This document shows, one piece after another, positions 3,338-57,075 of a stretch of DNA of 64,000 bases; position 1 is the first letter of the stretch; the number at the start of each line of letters is the position of its first letter. The position numbers were made by a program, and so were the translations under genes. Below the pieces are notes generated by a model, which saw only the letters and a list, made by a program, of their open reading frames with translations, made no database searches and had not been told where the DNA came from. This DNA comes from Protonemura montana (Eukaryota > Arthropoda > Insecta > Plecoptera > Nemouridae): NCBI GenBank assembly GCA_947568835.1, contig OX387602.1, positions 1,706,570 through 1,770,569 on the forward strand. The letters are read 5' to 3'.

Positions 3338-6300
3338 GCATTATTCCGGACGGCGACCGGGCCAGGAAGTGTCTTCGTTTCGACAGCGTCCGTGCCCTCG
3401 CACGACGACAGAGAGCAGCACACAGGCGGGCCACGAGGCTGGGTGCGAGGGTGACACGGAGGAATCTCACGTCGAGTCAAGCTCAGCTGGGCCGAGCAAC
3501 GGTGCTGCCGCCAAGCCCCTCGCGGAGGAAGGAAGCACCGCGCGGGGCGTGAAGAGGAGTCGCAGCGAGTTGGAGTCTGAGGCCCCTTCCATCGTGACCC
3601 AACCCACGGAGACTCCTGTCAACGTCGGTCCAGCCACCTCGACGGTGGTTGCAGATGCCGGTACTGCTGGTGAAGAGCAGCCAACAGCCGGCCAAGGGAG
3701 GACAACGACCCAGGTATACCTTGTCTCTAGCTGCTGGAAGTATTTGTGTATTAGTTCCATGATGATGCAATGAGATATTCATTACTTGTGAATAATTATT
3801 ATGACCAGTTGTATTATGTCTGGCCAGTTGTATTATGTCTGGCCAGTTGTATCTGTATCTGGTTGTAATTTGGAGATAAGTACCTACTGTCTTAGTTATC
3901 TAATCAATTGTCAATTTGAAAAAGGTATTTGGTCAATCTGCACCAAATCAAATAATCAAAACTGTCACCTAACGTTACCCTTGAGTGTGCATGTTCTAGG
4001 TAAAGACACGACGTTGATGTTACAGTTTCTGCGTGAAAGATGGCCGCCAAATGACTACCTTACCGACAAAAATGCAGAGTACCGGAACATCACGTTAAGT
4101 GGAGCCACTGTCGTATGAAATTTATTTTCGATATTTCTCGTAGGCTTATTGGCTTTTGAGACTTTTTATGCTCAAAAGATCTCCATCAATGTTTACCTCA
4201 ACGATTGATATACACGTAATGATTTTAAAGAGCGAGTAACCTACGATAAATATCGAAATTAAATTTTATGCGACAGTGGCTCCACTTAACGGCGTGTTCC
4301 AGTACTCTGCGTTTTGTCGGTAAAACAGTTATTTGGAGGCCATATTTCACGCAGAAAGTTTGACGTTAACGTTCTGCCTCTACCTAGAACCTGCACACTC
4401 AACGGTTTAACATTAACGTTCTGTCTCTACCTAGAACCTGCACACTCAACGGTTTAACATTAACGTTCTGCCTCTTCCTAGAACCTGCACACTCAACGGT
4501 TTAACATTAAAGTTCTGTCTCTACCTAGAACCTGCACACTCAACGGTTTAACATTAACGTTCTGTCTCTACCTAGAACCTGCACACTCAACGGTTTAACA
4601 TTAACGTTCTGCCTCTTCCTAGAACCTGCACACTCAACGGTTTAACATTAACGCTCTGTCTCTACCTAGAACCTGCACACTCAACGGTTTAACATTAACG
4701 TTCTGTCTCTACCTAGAACCTGCACACTCAACGGTTTAACATTAACGCTCTGTCTCTACCTAGAACCTGAACACTCAACGACGTTACTGTAGATTAGGCT
4801 TGATTGAAATGATTGACATGCATCCCTTAAAGCAACCGGCCCAGTGGTTGGGATTTGTAATCCTCTCGTCCCTCATCTGCCACTGGCTTTTCTTGTTTCC
4901 AGTCGCTGCGTTCGATGATAGCGCGCCTAGAATCGCTGGTTCGCGATCAGCGTGAGCTCGCTGCGTCAGTCTCCCCAGGTACTGAAGTCTAAACTTTGCA
5001 TGTTGCCACGTTGCTCATTTTCTCGAACAACTTGAAATCTTATCGCTCGCTTTTCGTTTCAGGCTTGGACCATCAGGACGTTCCTCGCCCGACGGCAGCG
5101 GCGGGGTCCACACTTTCCGCAGAAGAGCGACTGGCGTAAGTTATCACTCGGCGTTTCTTGTGGGATCGCTTGTTTTCCCGCTCATAGCGCCACCGGTCTC
5201 TGTGCCCCACGTTCAACTGCGGAGTATTTTACATTTATTTATTTATTCTTTTAATTTTTCACAATTATTTAAATATAATATAGTTTTTTTATTATTATAA
5301 ATACTATAACCGTCTCAAAAGTTGATGCCCAAACAGGGACTAAAATGGTCTCAAAGTAGCTCAATTGGTTAGAGCAACAGCCGCGACAGGTGGAGATCAG
5401 GGTTCGTGTGGGGATCAATTTTTGAGACGGTTATTGTTTTCATAATAATAATATACCCCACGCATTGCAAGCGTTTGCAATTTAAATAAGATTTCATCTA
5501 AAAATACAGTTTAGATTCATTCAAAGAAAACGATGAGAAAACGTGAAAAAAAAACTAAGAAAAAAACCATGAGCAGTGATTTGAAAATGACCTTGTTGCT
5601 GTGGACCAAACTGTAGCTGATCATTATGTATTATGTAACTTTGAAAATGTTATTTTTGGTGACAAAAACTAAATAAAGCAATGCTTGCAAGAGGTATTGT
5701 CATATTATGCCATTAAATTTAACCGACTCCTGGTTTGAAAAATAAATCCACCGATACAGAAAGGAATAACTTACAATTAACAGATGAAATTATAATCAGC
5801 TTGGTACATTTTCACTGTTTTCTTTATTTATTTTATAAGTAGCCAAAAATAATAATTTTAAATATATTCTTATATCTATATCTCGTTGAAATTATTTTCC
5901 GTAATAAAACCTTGCCAGTGTCTCGAGCTGATCACTTGTGTTTGGCGGGTGTTTGCAGGTCTGCGCTACAGAACGAGGAGTACGAAAGCGGGCGTCTGTA
6001 TCGCAGCACGCTCAGCCGTCAGTCCCGCCTCGAAGACTGGGAGTACACACGCGAGTCAACCCGGCTCCGAGCCAGGTGAGTCCAACGTACCGCCACGGTC
6101 CATCGACAAACCTGTCTCATTCTGAATCTTGTTTCCGATTTTGTCCATCAGGCAGGTGTTGAGCCTCATGGTTGAGAGTCTCACACAGTTTTTCGAAGAA
6201 AATGGACTTTCTCACAATACTCCTCATGCCGTCTTGGATGATCAAATCTACAGTAAGAATAACTGACTCGTCACAGAATTCTTAAAAAAAAAGACGATTG

Positions 6301-12504: not shown

Positions 12505-15500
12505 ATGGCGCCTGTCTGGCAGGCTAGTGGAGTGTTTAATGTCACTTTTATTCGAATATTGGCCTCTATTTGTTTTCTATCAATCTTATTTGCTGGACAA
12601 GTCGATTTGGCGAACAGTACTCATATTGAAGGAACATGGAATACGAAAGATTTCTTCAAGTTTTTAGTAAAGTTTGGGTTTCAAAAAACGGATGTACATA
12701 GACCGAAGGATACTTTAGGTTATATTTTTGGTAATATTACTTCAAAAACTAATTTTAGTCACCCAGTGACGTTCTCAGTGTTAGGAAGAGGGTATTTTTT
12801 AGAGTATTATGGAAATCGATCAGTTTTGGACAAAGAAAGTGCTTGCATCAAAATGTTTGACAAGATTAGCAAGTCTGCTTATGATGCGCAATGTAGTGAC
12901 ACAGGAGAAGACTTTCTACGGAAAATTCCCTGTGCTAAGAATGGTTTGTGTGTGGATGAAGATGCTCCTTCCAATGTGATTAAAGATCATCAGTTTACTT
13001 ACGTAATAGAAGATCTGCGACAGCCAAGGTGAGTTTGCTAAGTCCACAATATTGTATCGAAGTAATTCTGTTATGACAAAAAATTACTAGCAAATACCTA
13101 CACCTTTTTCAATACCTAAAAATGTGCTGTTCCATATCATAGAAAGTATGTCAGTATTGTTAATTAATTTTGGTAAAATTACACTGCCACTGCCACTGTA
13201 GTAGGTACCTTTATTGCACTCCAATTCTCATCGCATAAGTAAAGTATGTTTGATCAAGATATGGATAGATATGTAAAGATTTGCTTTTTAAACCCCTGTA
13301 AAGAACTCACAAAACTTTGTGAGTAATATGATATTGAAAGTGGTTATTTTTTTGCTATGGTATCTAGATATTAACATCAGTTGATGAGGAAGTCATAATA
13401 TGTTGCATACCAACACTGCAATTCCATTCTGTTAACTCTTTCGTGGTTAAATAATTTTTTAAGTTGATAATTTTTTTGAATAATATTCAATTACTATTGT
13501 AAATATAGTTCAATATCATTTTTTATTAATATTGAGCAGAATTGTGAAATAAACTGGTGGAATATAATCTACCAACTGATGCTCTGTAGCCAAAAATATG
13601 TATCCCATTAACCTTACACGTTATTGAAACGTGCAAACGTAGAAAACGTATTCTCATTAATCTCGAAAGGGTTAAATAATGTTTAAAAATTGAATTTAGA
13701 TCATGTGCTTGAATTTCCTTGGATTCACAAATTGCATTGACACTTGACAGCATTTAGGATCTCACAAATTTCAACGTAGGTACAACAGCAAATGTAGAGA
13801 AATGCATATTCGACTGACTGCCCTGGTGCGCACTAGGCACTCTAGACAAATTTTGCAAGTTCGACTAGCAGAATTGCTTGCTCCCACGTCACCTTTCTTA
13901 TAATAAGAATTTTGGCTGTGCAATTGGAAAACAGAATGGCCTAACAGCTTGTGATCATGTGTTTGGATGGGAGTGCTCTCTCAAAGTGTTGTTGCCTGAT
14001 AATCTCATGGAATAAAATAAATAAGAAAACAGCAGAGAGCCTCATTGAGCAAGTTTCAAACCTGCCCCAGAGCATACCAGTCAAATGCTCCTTTTTACTT
14101 CATGTTTTCCTGCATAATTGATAACTTGTCTTGCAGATTCATATCTAGGTTTTTCCACAGTTCAAATATACATCTTTACCTACCTACAAACTGTTCAGCT
14201 ATATACTCAACTTTATTTTCAGGTTCTGGTACATAAGCATGGTGGCATGCTACAGAAATTTAACAACGTGTACATGGCATCACTTGGCTGAAGAACTTGA
14301 CCTAGAATATAATATTTGGCTGGTTAATGGAAATCCAAACGTCAGCAGCTATAACCCGTTGCTGTACCAGTTTTCTTTCGATCGCCAGGTAATATATTTT
14401 CAAAGTATTCAACATAAACTTCAGCTAGTAAATTTCAATGAAATTTAATGAAGATGTTAAATAGGAAAATATTATTTTTTGCTTAGAGTTTACTTAAAAC
14501 ACAAATTTTTTGCTATGTAAAAATACTTTTCTGTTATGGTATGGTCATTTCTGGGCTCTGTTAAATCAAACTTGAAGTTCAGGTTGCTTTTATGTTTCAT
14601 TGGTTTTGTTTCCAATATGAAACGTACATTAGCACAAATCATTGACAGCTACATGATTAATTTTGTTTAATGTGACAGAACAATGTCTTCTAACACCACA
14701 TTTAGTTGAAAACTTTGATTTTTTTTCGAATTGCCATAATTACTAGTTCTCTACTTGTTTATGCACCAAATCCTGTACAGATTCAGTTGCTTCCATTCTT
14801 TAAATGTTATTCAGGCATTCATTTAAAATTCTCTTTGATGCAAGATCTATTTTTTCTGACAAATTTAATTATTTTTCAGGACACGGTGGAGCTTTATATC
14901 ATCTTCTTCACAACATACTTGGTGTTGGTTCCTTTCCAACTCTACGCAGCAATGCGTCAACGACATCCAGTTACGCGGCTCTTCACAGTCAGCCTTATTT
15001 TGGAGTTTTTTGCCCTTTGTTTGATTCTCGTCCATGTGCTGAAATTCTCAATCGATGGCGTAGGCGTTCATCAAGTGGCAGTTGCTGGGGACATTTTGGA
15101 TATCTTGTCTCGGGTAAGTCAAACATCTTGGTAGAACTAGTCTTCACTTTAAAACTTAACTTGGAAAAGAGGAAAGAAGTTTGCAAATTATCAAGGTAGA
15201 AATGGGCTAAAAATATTAAAGAGATGTACTATCAGGTATGTGACAGGGTACGACCAACCAGTAGTACCCGTTCATCTTTTGCTAGGCTATGTCTGGATCG
15301 GTGAGTTGCGTTTCTTTCTTTCCTCTTCTCAAATATTTTCAGCTACCTTTTGACACAACATTTTCAAGTACCTTATAAGATATTGTTAAATCATTTCATA
15401 TCAGTCGCATGAAGTTCTCTAGCCTAATAAGTTACAAAAATATGCACTTGTTTGTTGAATCACAATAAGATTGTGTTATTGTTCATTCTTTTTTAGTTTA

Positions 15501-18529: not shown

Positions 18530-18916
18530 TCAAAGTAACTTAAGATTGTTTGTTAATTGATTGACTAAAGATGTTTTTCCTGGTCCTATTCCTAAGACCG
18601 TAATGCTCCCTGTTTCTACTTGCGTCCTGCCTGCATCTTTCACCAATGATGTGACTAGACCCAACTTTGTTGCTTCCTGCAAAAGTTGCAGCAAGCATTC
18701 TTCTCCATTTACATCTGACTTGAGCACAATCTTTGGTTGCCCCTGGGCTTCCCACAACCTCAAAATGCCAGGAGATTTCACGGTCGCTGTTTTGTAGCAC
18801 CCAATTGCTGCATGTGCACACTGTGAAGCAATTTTACCCTTCTTCATTCCGACGTCCATCCTTACAACCAAAACCAGTTTTGTTGCCATCTTGTCTAAAA
18901 GCATACTTTTAAGCAT
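18530..18916 (-). CDS. PTRH2: Peptidyl-tRNA hydrolase 2 (PTH2 family)
   Basis: One exon of 128 residues covers the whole PTH2 catalytic domain. The enzyme cleaves the ester bond of stalled peptidyl-tRNA, and in animals it also has mitochondrial and anoikis roles. Family motifs are in order: KLVLVVRMDVGMKKGKIASQ near residue 13, CAHAAIGCYK, GQPKIVLK, LVKDAGRTQVETGS near 95, and VLGIGPG before the C-terminus. Several in-frame Met codons are present; 18916 is the first and MATKLVLVV (18889) is also plausible. The human protein has an N-terminal membrane anchor. Here there is only a few residues, so either this form is soluble or an upstream exon is unseen. A good acceptor (TTGCAATTCCAG) sits 5 bp or less before the first ATG. 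The COA4 stop is only about 70 bp upstream on the same strand. Confidence 0.92.
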   Translation of the reverse strand: MLKSMLLDKMATKLVLVVRMDVGMKKGKIASQCAHAAIGCYKTATVKSPGILRLWEAQGQPKIVLKSDVNGEECLLQLLQEATKLGLVTSLVKDAGRTQVETGSITVLGIGPGKTSLVNQLTNNLKLL

Positions 18917-18988
18917 ACTGGAATTGCAAGTATTTACAATATTAATTAAACAAATATTTTCAAGGGTCCTACAGTCTTAACAAAACAA

Positions 18989-33478: not shown

Positions 33479-36400
33479 TCATTCCTCGGTGGCTGTCTCG
33501 GCGGCCTGGATGGCTCTTAGCTCGGCATCTGTCGCAGGAAACAGTAAATTATCATGGTGTCCCACAACTACAAAGCAGCTCACGTGATTAAACGTACCCC
33601 GCACAGCCTGATCTTTCCAAATCTTCTTGTTCTCTCCCAAACAGGTCACCCACGGCTTTTTGATCTTGAACCTTGGCGACTGGTCGGGACTCGCCGTTGA
33701 ACCTGGTGACAGAAACACGCGGTGAGTGTTGTACAGGCACTGATTCGATATACCTATACTGTAAACGAGGTCCGGTAGATCCTCGGTGAGGTCCGGTAGT
33801 ATAGTAGTAACCAAATAGTAGTCACCATTCTTTGTCAGGTCTGCTGACTCCTCGGTGATGACGGGGTCACCTTCGGCTGTAAGAGGTTTACAGGACGAAT
33901 GTATAGGTCCAAGAATTGTTTCCAGCATGTCACTACACACCGCCAGGCTTGGCTCGACGATGAACTCGATAAAACCTGCAACAGCACGATACCAATTAAC
34001 ACGATGCAGCCAAAGTGTGGGCAAAATAAATAGGACTCTAGAAAGTGTGCACCACTCGCCTATCTGCGATTCAGCGACAAGGGTGTTGTTCCTGTCGCAA
34101 AGAGGGCTGAAAGGTAGGCCTAGTTCCCTTTCCTTGTCTCCTTGAAGGAAGAACTCCTCCAACAGCGACATTGTCCATCGGTTGTGCAGGTCCCACCTCT
34201 TAGCAGGGTGGGCGATGTCGCAGCAGTGCAGGACGAGGGACATCGCCTTTGATTTTTCAACGCTAAAATATTCAGAGCACATGAGATTGGGGCTCATGGA
34301 GCTCATGAGAGCCCAAATGTGTCACGTGAAAGCAAGTGGAAGTCTGCTACATACGTAGGTTCGGCTAGGGTCAGCAAGTTTTTCATGTTCTTCAGCTGTT
34401 GGAAGTGGAAACTCATGTCTGTGGCAAGGACCATGTCGATCACTAGCGTCCTGAACTCTCGGAACTCTTCCCTCGAAAGGTTCTGCAGGATGTTGCATTC
34501 CTCATCCTTTATCACACTGGAAAATATATAAAAAAATCAATGTACAAATTGGGCAAATTAATTTAATACCAGTCGCTAATCTCTTTTATGAACGACAAAC
34601 TAAAGATGCATACAAAAAAATTAAAATACTAAAAGTTCCAAGATTCAAAACGGCTATCCTAGCCGTTTTGAAAATCTATTGTTGTAAGCTGACAGAAACT
34701 GTTCTTACAATTTTGAAAATTCAATCGATAAATTATCTATTGTTTTGTTTTGAACGCTGACCAAATTTGCAATACATTTTTTGTTGTTCTGAAAGCTTTG
34801 GTGAAACGCAACACGTTCTTAGTTTAATTATTTATTTTTACGATTAGTAAGACCAAAAATTCAAGGAAATGTTCAAGAAATCGGCTGACAATTCAGTGAT
34901 CGATGGAGATACAGTAAATAATTGGTTGCGCAAATATGCGCAACAATGGTAAATACTATAAATGCATGAAACTAATTTTAATGATAACCAAAATTAAATG
35001 TAATCCCGAACCTATGATCTTACTGAAATGGCTTTGTGGTCTGCAAGCCGGGATTCAACAAACATTTTTGGGGTTGTTTGAACTTAGGAATGTGTCTCTG
35101 CATTTTGGTGGGCCCCTAGAGTAGGGTTGCCATAATAAAAATTTCGGAAGGCGGGACAAATTTTAACAAACGAAAAGTAGTTAGGCCGGAGGCTCGGAGG
35201 ACAGACAGCCCACCCCCCCCCCCCCTAAAAAAAAATAAGGGTGTGGATGTGGGAACAGGATTTGAGGGCCATTTTCAGCAAATTTCACGCGTTTTAGGTA
35301 TATTTAGGGTTTTTCTTGACACTTGAAATCCTGAGTCATATTTATGCATCAACTTTCAGTTTATGAGCAGGCAATTTAGGTATAATTCGTATAACTATTT
35401 AAAAAAATATATATATTTAACCTTAGATAAAAAAAAATTTATGGGTGACAGTTCACGTACAATCATAACGTCATTGGCACAAATAGAGGAACAATAGCTA
35501 TTTATCAGGAACAATGCAAATGCAATGTTCGATTTCGCGATTTTTTAAAAGAAAATTACGATCGAGCGGGACATTCGTCCCGCTCCGCGGGACTCGGGAC
35601 TTTTGAGTGAAAAGCGGGACGTTTGGCAACCCTACCCTAGAGACAGAGAACGATCATGACATGCTTCAAATAAAATTCTGTATCGAGACAAAAAAAAAAA
35701 CGTACAAAAAATCACTATGGCCAAGAATATCACAATGAAAATCAATCATTTTTGCGAACAAAGTCTACCAACAAGATCCCGGAGATTGAAATATCTGCCG
35801 CCAATAGCGGAACTAACGGGCACATTTTTTTCCTCCACTTTTTTTCTTGCCTCTCCCAAATCCTCTACGCTAAAATATTATTTTTTGTCGACTCCCCCAA
35901 ACGTCGTCCTTCCCTTCGTGCTTGACGTACCTGAAGGCCGCACTGATGTGATGGTTCTCGAGCACCGCCCTGTCGTTGTAGAGGAGGGCGATCTCCGAAC
36001 CGGACATCACGTGGAAGTTGTTCGTGGTGCCCGTGTGCTCGTAGTCGTGGATTAACGCAGCCACGAGGGTCGCGAAGATCTCCAGGTCCGACAGCCAGTT
36101 CTGCAAACGATGGCGTTGCGGTCAGAAGTTACCATCGAAATGAGCCGAACCTTATCCATGTACCATGACTGGTCGGTAGTCACTGACCACCAACTCTAAG
36201 CGCAACTCATGAGCGGTTTGGCGTGTTGGAAACACCGGTTCTCATGAGATCACCGAAGTTAAGCAACACTGCGCTGGGTCAGGTATTGGATGGGTGACCA
36301 TCATACACATAACTAGTTCTGTTCGGGAGAGAGGTTAGAGGGATGAAAGTAAAGCAACACTGCGCTGGGTCAGGTATTGAATGGGTGACCATCATACACA

Positions 36401-39400
36401 TGACCAGTTCTGTTTGGGAGAGAGGTTGGAGGGATGAAAGTTAAGCAACACTGCGCTGGGTCAGGTATTGGATGGGTGACCATCATACACATAACTAGTT
36501 CTGTTCGGGAGAGAGGTTGGAGGGATGCAAGTTAGTACAGCAACTTCATTCGCCCTGCTTATCAACCTCTCGACAGCATGGATTTGTGGAGGAATCCTGT
36601 TGTTCGAGTTGTACCGTTTTTTGGAAGAGACGTTAAGCCGGTGGTCCCCTTGGTGCTCTTTGACAGGAGTAGACTACGCGCCGGTACCGGATTTTCTCTC
36701 CTCCCTTCTAGGCTAGGTTAGGTTTATCATCATCCGCTCATTTACCGGCGCCATTAGACCAGATGTCAAAATGGTGCGTCGTTAAACACCACAAATCAAT
36801 CGATCAATCTAAACTCAATGTGGCTTTCTGTGCCCAAATTAGAATCTTAAATTACGTTTCGCCTGGCCTGCATCGGAATGAAAATAAAAAATAAATATTG
36901 CTCTGCGCAAATCGGTTTTTGAGAACCAACCACGTCAACGAGAACGAAAAGTTAAAATACATTCTACCCTTATTTGGTCAATCCTCTGCTGTTCAAAGAA
37001 AAGCGAGTACCGAACCAAACTTCCAAAGAGTGTCGTACACTAGTTATTTTTTCAATTTTCCACTGAAAAAATTAGAAAAAATTCCGGATACCTTGCGCGA
37101 AAGCTATTACTTTTGTTTTAAATCTGTAAAAATTGTAATAACAAACAAAAACCAACTTTTTTGGGATCTCAAAGGCTCAGGAATTCAACGGCCCCTTCGT
37201 AGTGCGTTAACCCGGGTTGCAGACATGTAACTTCGGTTGCAAGACTTTCGGGGGAGTTATCCAGCTTGGGGTTCATTACTAGAGAATCGGTGAATGCGTA
37301 CCATGAGCCCCGTCTGACAAAGCATGTAGTGCACTGTCTGGGCGACGTCTGCAGCGTGCATGTTATTGTGGTAGGGGTTTTTGTAGCGGCAATAGCCTTC
37401 TTCTATTCGAGAGAGAAACGTTTCTAGCGTCACTGAAGGAACCTGAAACAAACGAAAACTTTCAGTTGCTTGGCAATCAAACCAAAACAAACTAACGGTG
37501 ACCATAGAGCGAACGACGGAAGATTTTGTAGCCGAATGGTTTTTTTTTTTTGCTAAAGTAGACTTTACCTTGAATTTATGGATAATCCCGTAGCGATTGA
37601 GCAGATCATATCCAATGTACTTGACTGGCTGACTGCTGCCGGTGTCATTCAGAGCGAACACGTCGAACGACCAATCGTCCAGCGTCTGGAAGTACATCGG
37701 ACAACTTTTAGAACAAAGACCAATTGCCCAATTGCCTTGATCACTTCAAGATATTGGACCGCATCTGAGCCGTGTAAGCTTTTGGATACCAATTTGAGCA
37801 ATTTACCCAATCTTTTGAACTAATTCCTGATATTGTAGCTCATTCCGGCATATTCGTCTGCAGTTGAACCACAACTATTGGATCTTTATAAGCTATTGCA
37901 CTTGTACGCGCTATTGGACCATGCTTAGAGCTGTGTACTCCCTTTGATGTATTCAACCACTGTGAGCTTGAGCTACATTTCCCAATTATTATGCAACCAA
38001 TCAGCAAGCAACCGTGAGGCGGAGAAAGGGTAAGCAGTTGAGATGGCACGGTTACTTTGAGCACCCTGACGACGTCGGCGGGGTACTGCATGAGCGCCGT
38101 GTTGGTGACGCGGCGGTAGATGCGGTCGACGAAGATGCCGGCGCGGATGGCATGAGCCACGGACCGGAACTTGGGCTTCTCGTCGCTGCGTCGCTTGGTC
38201 GTCGCCAGCTGGCGGGTGAACGTCGACGCGAGCCACTCGCGAACTTCCGGTGGCACCGCGTCCGGCTGCACCTCTGAGAGCTCGTCGTCTTCATCGGCCA
38301 GCCGCCTGCAGAGACAGGGGAGTTGGGCAACGCCGAGGTTAGCGCTAGTGCAGACTTGGCCATCGCGAGGCAAGCGACAGCATTGTGTGATTATTCACGA
38401 AGGTTATTTTTAGTTAGACGTTAGTTTCATCACAAACCACCAACACAAAGACGCTGTAAGAGCCACTTAGAGTTTAAAATGCTTACCTACAGTAATTTAA
38501 GTTTTGTCTTGCAAAAGACAATTTGATTTGAATTAAACTTTCGAATCAGAATATCCGATCAATAAACTTTCAATTCCTGTTTAAAATTTTAAAATGTTTG
38601 TACTTACAGAACCCAAACGGTTAACTTTTTTGTTGTTAACATGTAAGCATATTACTGAATTGTTTGGCGAAATCTTAAGACAGATTGACAGACCGTTGTG
38701 ATGTTGTGACGAACGGAGGCTTCTAACTACTGGCCTAAAATGTCTTGTGAATCGAGCAGCACTTTCATTACCGGACGGAGATGTCCAAGTATCGATTTCT
38801 ATACCGAACAAGTTGGAAGTTATCCGTCCCTGGAGTGCAATACTTGAGGTATTCCTCTTACAGGCCAGGGGCAAGACTCCCGTAATATCAGAATGCAATC
38901 ATCTGATTGGCTTGTTAAAATTTCCTCGACCGTGAGCGGAAGCATCAAAATAGATCTACAATAAAAAGTTGTAAATAATGACTCTTATCAATGATCTGCT
39001 TATAAAACTAGAATTCCGCTTCTTTTAAGTGATGGTTCCCGTTATAGGGTCAAAAAAAGTTGGTTTCATCGTATCAACTTACTAAAAACTTGTTCGAATA
39101 ATGTAAAAATAAAGTCATGCGACAATCGTTGAGTTTCTAGGTTAGTTTTGTTGTTAGCTCAGTTTCTGTTAGTGTTGCAAATTCTTTATTTAATCAACAG
39201 TTAATCTGCAAAAGTAAAAGTTTCTAAAGTTCTCTAACTATACCGTCATTGGTAACTAAGGCTATGGTAAACTCTACCTACCAAAGCCAAGCCAAGGCTT
39301 GCAATGCATCTATCACGGCATACAATTTAAAACCCATTACTACGTCAGCTACCAGCTACCAGCTACCTTCGCTGGAAAAAGCGGAAACATTGTTCTAGTT

Positions 39401-53671: not shown

Positions 53672-54116
53672 GAAGAACCATTACAAGAGGATATCTTGGC
53701 TTATTATAAACATAATTACCAGGGCTGTGATAATTTATATATTGATTTATTTGTGGTGTTTAACGACGCACTGTTTTGACATCTGACCCTGTGGCACTGG
53801 TCTAATGGCGTCGGTGAACGAGAGATTGATGACGAGGATGATGATGAATATAACATCGTCTAGAAGGGAGGAGGGGAAACCCGGTGCCGGTGTAACAGAA
53901 TATTCGTACTGCCATAATATTATTACCCCCAGTAATCTCAGTTCATAATATGATTACTGGCCAGTAAACAAGAATTGTAATGAGATTACTGGCTGAGAAA
54001 ACCTAGCGTTTGAGAACATATTATTTGTACTGTACCAGTAAAACAAAAACAGTGAAATAATATTACTCCCAAAACAAAAGCATCACCTGCAGGGTACAGG
54101 GTGTCTTAAAGCAAAT

Positions 54117-55208
54117 GCAGGGGAGTAATCTGATAATAGCCTGAAGGTATAATGCTATTACTCCCCAACATAATGAAATGTGAACTTACCTGTGCATTTT
54201 GATGCAATCGAACTAGATGCACTACAGGGTGTGTACAAAACAATGCAGGGGAGTAATCTGATAATAGCCTGAAGGTATAATGCTATTACTCCCCAACATA
54301 ATGAAATGTGAACTTACCTGTGCATTTTGATGCAATCGAACTAGATGCACTACAGGGTGTGTACAAAACAATGCAGGGGAGTAATCTGATAATAGCCTGA
54401 AGGTATAATGCTATTACTCCCCAACATTATGAAATGTGAATTAACCTGTGCATTTTGATGCAATCGAACTAGATGCACTACAGGGTGTGTACAAAACAAT
54501 GCAGGGGAGTAATCTGATAATAGCCTGAAGGTATAATGCTATTACTCCCCAACATAATGAAATGTGAATTAACCTGTGCATTTTGATGCGATCGAACTAG
54601 ATGCACTACAGGGTGTGTACAAATCAATGCAGGGGAGTAATCTGATAATAGCCTGAAGGTATAATGCTATTACTCCCCAACATTATGAAATGTGAACTTA
54701 CCTGTGCATTTTGATGCAATCGAACTAGATGCACTACAGGGTGTGTACAAAACAATGCAGGGGAGTAATCTGATAATAGCCTGAAGGTATAATGCTATTA
54801 CTCCCCAACATTATGAAATGTGAACTTACCTGTGCATTTTGATGCAATCGAACTAGATGCACTACAGGGTGTGTACAAATCAATGCAGGGGAGTAATCTG
54901 ATAATAGCCTGAAGGTATAATGCTATTACTCCCCAACATTATGAAATGTGAACTTACCTGTGCATTTTGATGCAATCGAACTAGATGCACTACAGGGTGT
55001 GTACAAAGCAAATGCAGGGGAGTAATCTGATAATAGCCTGAAGGTATAATGCTATTACTCCCCAACATTATGAAATGTGAACTTACCTGTGCATTTTGAT
55101 GCAATCGAACTAGATGCACTACAGGGTGTGTACAAAACAATGCAGGGGAGTAATCTGATAATAGCCTGAAGGTATAATGCTATTACTCCCCAACATTATG
55201 AAATGTGA
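54117..55208 (+). repeat. 128-bp tandem array, left arm, about 8.6 copies
   Basis: Units start (GCAGGGGAGTAATCTG) at 54117, 54245, 54373, 54501, 54629, 54757, 54885, 55014 and 55142. Each holds an inner palindrome GGGGAGTAAT...ATTACTCCCC and a GATGCAATCGAACTAGATGC block. Unit variants (AAAAC, AAATC or AAAGCAAATG before the unit; GCGATCG; GAATTAACC) mark individual copies. Confidence 0.95.
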
Positions 55209-55300
55209 ACTGCAGGATGAGCGAGTTTCAAAAACATTGCTGGTATCCATAATGAAGCCAACCAAGGTCTCGATACTGATATTAACAAGGTCTTGATATT
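55209..55300. other. Unique centre of the palindrome
   Basis: About 90 bp separate the two arrays (CTGCAGGATGAGCGAGTTTC onward). It is not repeated in the window and contains two near-copies of CAAGGTCTCGATACTGATAT. Confidence 0.8.
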
Positions 55301-56373
55301 GAGTTCGATTGCATCAAAATGCACAGGTAAGTTCACATTTCATAATGTTGGGGAGTAATAGCATTATACCTTCAGGCTATTATCAGATTACTCCCCTGCA
55401 TTGTTTTGTACACACCCTGTAGTGCATCTAGTTCGATTGCATCAAAATGCACAGGTAAGTTCACATTTCATAATGTTGGGGAGTAATAGCATTATACCTT
55501 CAGGCTATTATCAGATTACTCCCCTGCATTTGCTTTGTACACACCCTGTAGTGCATCTAGTTCGATTGCATCAAAATGCACAGGTAAGTTCACATTTCAT
55601 TATGTTGGGGAGTAATAGCATTATACCTTCAGGCTATTATCAGATTACTCCCCTGCATTGTTTTGTACACACCCTGTAGTGCATCTAGTTCGATTGCATC
55701 AAAATGCACAGGTAAGTTCACATTTCATAATGTTGGGGAGTAATAGCATTATACCTTCAGGCTATTATCAGATTACTCCCCTGCATTGATTTGTACACAC
55801 CCTGTAGTGCATCTAGTTCGATTGCATCAAAATGCACAGGTAAGTTCACATTTCATAATGTTGGGGAGTAATAGCATTATACCTTCAGGCTATTATCAGA
55901 TTACTCCCCTGCATTGTTTTGTACACACCCTGTAGTGCATCTAGTTCGATTGCATCAAAATGCACAGGTAAGTTCACATTTCATAATGTTGGGGAGTAAT
56001 AGCATTATACCTGCAGGCTATTATCAGATTACTCCCCTGCATTGATTTGTACACACCCTGTAGTGCATCTAGTTCGATCGCATCAAAATGCACAGGTTAA
56101 TTCACATTTCATTATGTTGGGGAGTAATAGCATTATACCTTCAGGCTATTATCAGATTACTCCCCTGCATTGTTTTGTACACACCCTGTAGTGCATCTAG
56201 TTCGATTGCATCAAAATGCACAGGTTAATTCACATTTCATAATGTTGGGGAGTAATAGCATTATACCTTCAGGCTATTATCAGATTACTCCCCTGCATTG
56301 TTTTGTACACACCCTGTAGTGCATCTAGTTCGATTGCATCAAAATGCACAGGTAAGTTCACATTTCATTATGT
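55301..56373 (-). repeat. 128-bp tandem array, right arm, inverted
   Basis: The same 128-bp unit in reverse orientation, about 8 copies. Marker variants occur in nearly the same order from the centre outward as in the left arm, including the AAAGCAAATG unit second from centre and the GCGATCG unit tied to an AAATC unit. Confidence 0.95.
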
Positions 56374-57075
56374 TTGCAAGGGGTGTTGTTGCATTTCTAT
56401 CGAAAGTTATGGGGCGTATTCCATATGAAGTCCCCACAGCAAGTAGCCTGGCTAATTTTTAAGCTAAACAGTACGCTAATCCCTGCAATGTGTTTGGTCA
56501 CCCTGTGATTTGATTGATGTGATTTATTTGTGCATAGTCAGTAATACTATTATAGTGATGTTTTGAAATTTTGTATTACTGTATATGTAATAATATGTAT
56601 TATTTTTACTGGGCCAGTAATCTCAAATCGTCTTTAGTTTACTGGTACAGTAATCTCAAAACGTTTCTAGTTTACTGGTACAGTAATCGTAGATCATATT
56701 GAGTTTACTGGCCAGTAAAACTAGCATATGCTGTGTTTACTGGGGGGTAATGTTAGTGGACAGTATAAATATTATGCGACACCGGCACGTAGTCTACTCC
56801 TGTCAAAGAGCACCAAGCGGACCATCGGCTTAACGTCCCTTCCGAAGGACGGTACAACGCGAAAATCAGGATACCCCCACAAATCCAAGCTGTAGAGAGG
56901 TTGATAAGCAAGACGAATGAAATTGTTCTAACTTTCATCCCTCCAACCTCTCTCCCGAACAGAACTGGTCATGGGTTTGATGGTCACCCATCCAATACCT
57001 GACTCAACGCAGTGTTGCTTAACTTCGGTGATCTCACGAGAACCGGTGTTTCTAACGCGCCAAACCGTTCGGTGA

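Follow-up and report, generated by a model that had tools for sequence, protein, structure and literature searches.

Inverted tandem arrays in a foldback-like family of transposons assigned to Ginger1 in Protonemura montana

The insertion and its surroundings

The window, that is, the whole stretch of 64,000 nucleotides of Protonemura montana DNA that was analysed, contains a palindromic insertion of 2,891 bp, which starts with TGTAAC, ends with GCGACA and has CCGG on either side (Table 1). These ends and this duplication, described in the original prediction, were seen directly, and the two inverted arrays of 128-bp units around a centre of about 90 bp were borne out by TRF and by the alignment of the arms. 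The left array comprises 8.7 copies of the unit and the right array 8.4 copies, each with 97% matches, as determined by TRF, which additionally detected 33-bp subrepeats at positions 56605–56718, within the 3' subterminal region.

Table 1. Positions, in the window, of the parts of the insertion and of its host sequence
Feature	Positions	Strand	Basis
CCGG target duplication, left copy	53887–53890	.	Flank sequence
5' TIR, imperfect, starting with TGTAA (TGTNR)	53891–54030	+	Local alignment with the reverse-complemented 3' end
Left array, 9 units of 128/129 bp	54095–55211	+	TRF
Unit K' of the left arm, private variant at 54590	54504–54631	+	Unit comparison
Centre, leftover of the 3' end of the L018 interior	55212–55301	+	Comparison with the transposase-bearing copy L018
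Right array, 8 units of 128/129 bp, inverted	55302–56374	-	TRF
Unit K' of the right arm, identical private variant at 56079	56038–56165	-	Unit comparison
3' subterminal region and imperfect TIR, ending with ACA	56375–56781	+	TRF, end alignment
CCGG target duplication, right copy	56782–56785	.	Flank sequence
Head of the 5S rRNA-derived SINE	56958–57073	-	Rfam RF00001, 51.1 bits

The host sequence is a SINE derived from 5S rRNA, which the insertion interrupts. An empty site had been predicted in a sister SINE, and it is real: the sister at 36636–36720 (minus strand) and the joined flanks of the insertion are alike at 75 of 85 positions, and a 5S rRNA match adjoins each of the two SINEs. In taking the locus for a transposed element bounded by this duplication and these ends, the original prediction was right. 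A 5S-derived SINE is also found at 36208–36534, where 3.1 tandem copies of a 91-bp unit overlap the 5S part.

Elsewhere in the window, TRF revealed an array of nine copies of a 47-bp unit at 4358–4780 (95% matches). The sequences at 14706–15134, 18530–18976 and 33479–38394, which correspond to GPR180/TMEM145, peptidyl-tRNA hydrolase 2 and a cyclic nucleotide phosphodiesterase, respectively, are likely exons of host genes. A transposase fragment on the minus strand at 2215–2676, both Pfam matches of which (TNP-like domains) lie just below the curated cut-off, presumably resembles transposases of the P-element/THAP9 type.

Copies of the element and assignment of the family

Sequence searches of the assembly from which the window comes (258 Mb in 34 contigs) found the first 100 bp of the element in 37 places, the last 100 bp in 26 and the centre in 14, whereas a single 128-bp unit gave at least 464 matches. 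Further copies with the same ends, the absence of which the original prediction had named as telling against it, do exist: 18 of the 37 places, the window's own included, are 100% identical to the 5' end over 100 bp. We retrieved 36 loci, which jointly cover all the 5'-end and 3'-end places, and found among them 22 near-identical full copies, as well as older relatives (L030 and L031, which are two halves of one element, L032–L035, L037 and L038–L044).

All 22 full copies have TGTAAC..GCGACA ends and the same order of parts: 5' end, array, middle, inverted array and 3' end. The left array consists of 3–20 units in each of them, and the right array of 3–15 units in all but L019, which has a single unit there. 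The CCGG duplication is present in 21 of the copies, the exception being the 3' side of L018; the base preceding it is G in 16/22 copies, and the base following it is C in 18/22. Outside the array cores, over 717 bp, 81 bp of which belong to the outer part of the last unit, the copies differ little, the exceptions being a small block in L011 and a 5' stretch in L036 that is rearranged. When these two rearranged stretches are omitted, 30 cells of the 22 x 717 deviate from the majority, which corresponds to an end divergence of about 0.2%. On sequence grounds, the family is very young. In the older relatives L030–L039 the ends match at about 82–98%, and each end mostly has just one or two units beside it, whole or partial (on one side of L033 there are four, with part of a fifth). 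This suggests that the inverted ends originally had the unit as a single subterminal segment, which was amplified afterwards.

Several copies had peculiarities of their own. Twelve of the 22 young copies are located on contigs C14 and C15, which account for 10.1% of the assembly (binomial tail 2.7e-7, with the contigs picked after the counts had been seen); local hopping, a special chromosome or the density of sites are candidate causes. In the older L032 and L033, on contig C4, both termini are 5' ends and the flanks match in opposite orientation; the two elements may represent one insertion within two copies of a larger repeat. An insert of about 3.2 kb within the left array of L019, with apparent inverted ends of its own (ACACGCTAAAAA...), is probably a nested element.

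One full copy, L018 (C14:1980994–1989984), is 8 kb long and retains a 5-kb middle, in which a gene is flanked by the arrays. The first open frame (355 aa) gave matches to Integrase_H2C2 (PF17921, 1.8e-12) and rve (PF00665, 7.8e-8), and the second (399 aa), a separate frame downstream of the interrupted stretch, to OTU (PF02338, 2.7e-7). Among solved structures, those closest to the protein by sequence include the integrases of foamy virus and Ty3. Inspection by eye revealed a GT-AG intron of about 1.2 kb between the frames, a D-35-E spacing counted across this intron, a GPY motif and, in exon 2, a break of the frame in an A-run shortly after the third catalytic residue. The flanks of L018 are CCGG at the 5' side and TTTG at the 3' side, and one of them may be rearranged.

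A genome search with the first frame of L018 gave 114 scored matches (270 candidates), of which L018 itself was the only one of full length. Four others are short stretches of the same exon in the deleted copies L011, L031, L032 and L033, and one, on contig C13, is a 121-bp fragment, in the 8-kb surroundings of which no family ends were found. The remaining matches, with 23–36% identity and mostly in long frames, resemble Gypsy-type integrases as judged by eye. In the 11.8-kb element L030/L031 we saw, by eye, no transposase gene in the lists of open reading frames, but only a fragment of exon 1. As the sole full-length match has an interrupted frame and lacks CCGG at its 3' side, any working source is putative.

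The centre of the window copy is the final 139 bp of the L018 interior, and this 3' remnant identifies the window copy as an internal-deletion derivative. Its deletion junction is common to L010 and L017; L015, L023, L024 and L025 have a different junction and a 3' marker in common, and L016 and L028 a third junction and a further marker. Among the 21 full copies other than L018, a clear piece of the L018 interior is present in 15 and a very short one in L029; L012, L013, L019, L022 and L036 contain none beyond unit sequence. The existence of different shared junctions indicates that the family consists of deletion derivatives that multiplied.

As described in parts of PMC2836005 (Bao, Kapitonov and Jurka 2010), Ginger1 transposons have CCGG or CCGT duplications, TGTNR ends, TIRs of 40–270 bp, and a Gypsy-like integrase with a GPY/F motif and an OTU or Ulp1 domain. 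The present family resembles them in its 4-bp CCGG duplication (21/22 full copies), in its TGTNR ends (TGTAA and, read inward from the 3' end, TGTCG, in 22/22), in the Gypsy-like integrase transposase (H2C2 and DDE core), carried by the sister copy L018 only and absent from the window copy, and in the C-terminal protease domain of L018, OTU. The single intron of L018 is likewise a feature of several hydra Ginger1 families in the same parts of PMC2836005. By its ends, duplication, and integrase and OTU domains, the family is placed in Ginger1. Unlike published Ginger1 elements, it has long inverted tandem arrays inside its ends: the inverted match of the ends is imperfect over all the 140 bp given, which is the length of the stretch tested and thus a lower bound, and with the arrays counted it extends over more than 1 kb, exceeding published Ginger1 TIRs. 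It differs from Ginger2 in that its target is CCGG, not the AT-rich RTATAY. IS481EU, with discrete duplications of 4, ~15 and ~25 bp and a parabasalid transposase (parts of PMC10045372), was set beside the family by its description; the only duplications seen here are the 4-bp CCGG. We are highly confident that the window copy belongs to a very young foldback family of Ginger1, as a non-autonomous member with an internal deletion.

Origin of the arrays and exchange between the arms

One of the two readings in the original prediction was that the palindrome is younger than the variation within the array. It is very improbable that the window copy or its parent underwent such an event, with a single, already varied array being duplicated in inverted form. 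Aligned with a shift, 717 nt of the arms of the window copy differ at only two positions (in register, there are 15 mismatches in 1045 nt), as such a duplication would leave them, but the arms differ outside the shared block, and the older relatives L030/L031, L032 and L033 already carry inverted units at both ends. Moreover, multi-unit arrays occupy both arms in 21 of the 22 full copies, including the gene-bearing L018, which indicates that the layout was inherited and not made in the window copy. Inverted duplication in the window copy as the origin of the layout is refuted, and a partial arm-to-arm copy remains. Nor is the palindrome at all likely to be an artefact, even though long inverted arrays are difficult to assemble: 22 copies at separate places, 21 of them with the CCGG duplication, have a layout of this kind while differing in unit order. 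It is scarcely credible, too, that the element is a foldback of Mutator/FB, P/Galileo or some other superfamily. The layout of long inverted tandem arrays flanking a variable middle is identical, but the duplication is the 4-bp CCGG, against 8–10 bp for the Mutator type, the ends are TGT..ACA, and the integrase–OTU gene of L018, by its content, rules such an element out.

Selection might keep the arrays as extra putative transposase-binding sites, as was proposed for Galileo, the THAP domain of which binds sites inside its tandem repeats (parts of PMC3688188). In favour of this, the 8-mer AGTAATCT (or its complement) is shared by both ends of the element and the unit consensus. However, the sharing of words was not above that in shuffled sequences, as 54 of 1000 shuffles reached it at k=7 and 178 of 1000 at k=8. 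The palindromic stem with the motif was no better conserved than the rest of the unit, either in older units (47/408 versus 144/1445 mismatches, p 0.36) or in young ones (p 0.41). Conserved binding sites in the array units are thus unsupported by the word-sharing and stem-conservation tests, and we regard such selection as possible but rather doubtful. As single-stranded DNA, a single unit folds better than shuffles do (z -3.35).

Tests on young units included 382 of 426 units, with the 44 innermost ones (one per arm) left out. Only three sites in the unit are widely informative, and they define twelve main unit types, the commonest represented by 105 units and the rarest by one; 21 rarer variants occur in 2–5 units each. 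With two divergent units dropped, 53 pairs of units had a rare variant in common: 9 pairs from opposite arms of one element, 13 from the same arm and 31 from different elements. Shuffling of labels gave 1.25, 1.35 and 50.4 such pairs, respectively, and none of 5000 shuffles reached either of the first two counts. The nine opposite-arm pairs are not independent, as they represent five variants in four elements (L013, L017, L022 and L026), L013 accounting for five of them, and only two of the five variants, in L022 and L026, are absent from all other elements.

In the window copy, the unit types read from the outside inward, with the innermost unit omitted, are G G D K' A B C A in the left arm and D K' A' B A I A in the right arm. 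The predicted offset of one unit between the arms, counted from the centre, is correct by this order, and the block D-K'-A-B is present in both arms. The K' variant is absent from all other units among the 382. Since plain inversion moves a unit without doubling it, the presence of K' in both arms needs copying between them. No other copy makes as strong a case for it. The longest arm-to-arm match among the 22 copies is that of the window copy (632 bp with at most one mismatch), and only 1 of 462 between-element pairs of arms equals it. The claim that the arms convert each other was therefore upheld, both by this private variant and by the excess of rare variants shared across arms.

The order of units as such is less informative. 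The agreement of order between arms exceeded that of shuffled orders in the window copy only, one of 19 testable elements (60 shuffles each), which is about the chance expectation at 5%; thus, it is the private variant that carries the case for copying of whole blocks, which is clear in the window copy and not general. By another statistic, none of 10000 permutations reached the matching of unit order in 21 elements. As the two order statistics disagree, we base inter-arm copying on rare variants and not on order alone, and we dropped a general matching of unit order between arms, for which shuffled orders support the window copy only. The arms use the same unit types at somewhat different frequencies (chi-square p 0.0009), indicating that exchange between them is not free.

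Changes in the arrays and in the interior can also be followed between related copies. L010 and L017 have no differences in the 717 bp of their ends and the same deletion junction, yet L010 has 16/8 units and L017 13/15, and their left arms are alignable only in part. The interior of L016 is inverted relative to that of L028, its 3'-marker partner, the interior fragment of L014 is inverted relative to its ends, and the very short remnant in L029 likewise reads as inverted. Read from these sequences, interior inversion is clear in two copies, L016 and L014. L015, L024 and L025 have 18 units each, with the centre of L025 shifted by three units, either through a pair of inversions or by coincidence.

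We propose that an integrase-type transposase, provided by a full copy as the putative source, would cut the TGT...ACA ends and join them to a CCGG site, and that unequal exchange would have expanded one subterminal segment per inverted end into an array. With two homologous arrays in inverted orientation, separated by about 50 bp to 5 kb, repair could copy units from arm to arm, by conversion or template switching, and crossovers between the arrays could flip the interior. As a conjecture that we think unlikely to hold in full, a Ginger1 lineage may have turned foldback, with repair that folds arm onto arm rewriting the arrays, possibly at each transposition, far faster than mutation does; L010 and L017, alike in their ends and unlike in their arrays, are the case in point.

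Comparison with known foldback elements

The element has long inverted ends of tandem units, variable in number, around a middle, as foldback elements have, which is a likeness of layout and not of lineage. The foldback element FB shares this layout of inverted tandem units. According to the original prediction, no family with such a layout had been described, but the foldback-type Tetris, Galileo and Tm1 have it. Overall, that interpretation held for transposition and for conversion between arms, and failed on the timing of the palindrome and on the novelty of the layout.

A foldback Ginger1 was not found in the parts consulted of PMC8268682, PMC6431247, PMC12863088, PMC10294476 and PMC10045372, nor elsewhere in the literature searched, the scope of which left subscription papers and Repbase reports outside. 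The words 'palindrom' and 'tandem repeat' are absent from the main text of PMC2836005, and passages of PMC9659126 mention foldback and not Ginger. The layout is already known, and its occurrence in Ginger1 appears to be undescribed in the literature searched. In Drosophila, inversions have been linked to Galileo and new satellites to Tetris, both of them foldback-type elements, and Ginger1 would add a further origin of foldback, in a transposon group near the integrases of LTR elements. As the family is very young, deletions, arm-to-arm copying and interior inversions are readable copy by copy, which makes the growth and homogeneity of the arrays a testable question.

Separate lineages may acquire foldback structure independently, Mutator providing most of the cases, though not all (parts of PMC4079207); Galileo (P) is among the exceptions. 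Tetris and Tm1 were assigned to Mutator, with duplications of 8–10 bp and 9 bp, respectively (parts of PMC4079207 and PMC3169594). The present family resembles both in its inverted repeats of tandem units, variable in number, with a variable middle, and it resembles Tm1 in having transposase-bearing and deleted forms, but it differs from them in its integrase-type transposase and 4-bp CCGG. Galileo, of the P superfamily, has a P-type transposase with a THAP domain, unlike the family described here; as in that family, however, its layout is foldback-like, both gene copies and 'two-TIR' copies exist, and the number of tandem units varies independently at each end (parts of PMC3573991 and PMC3688188).
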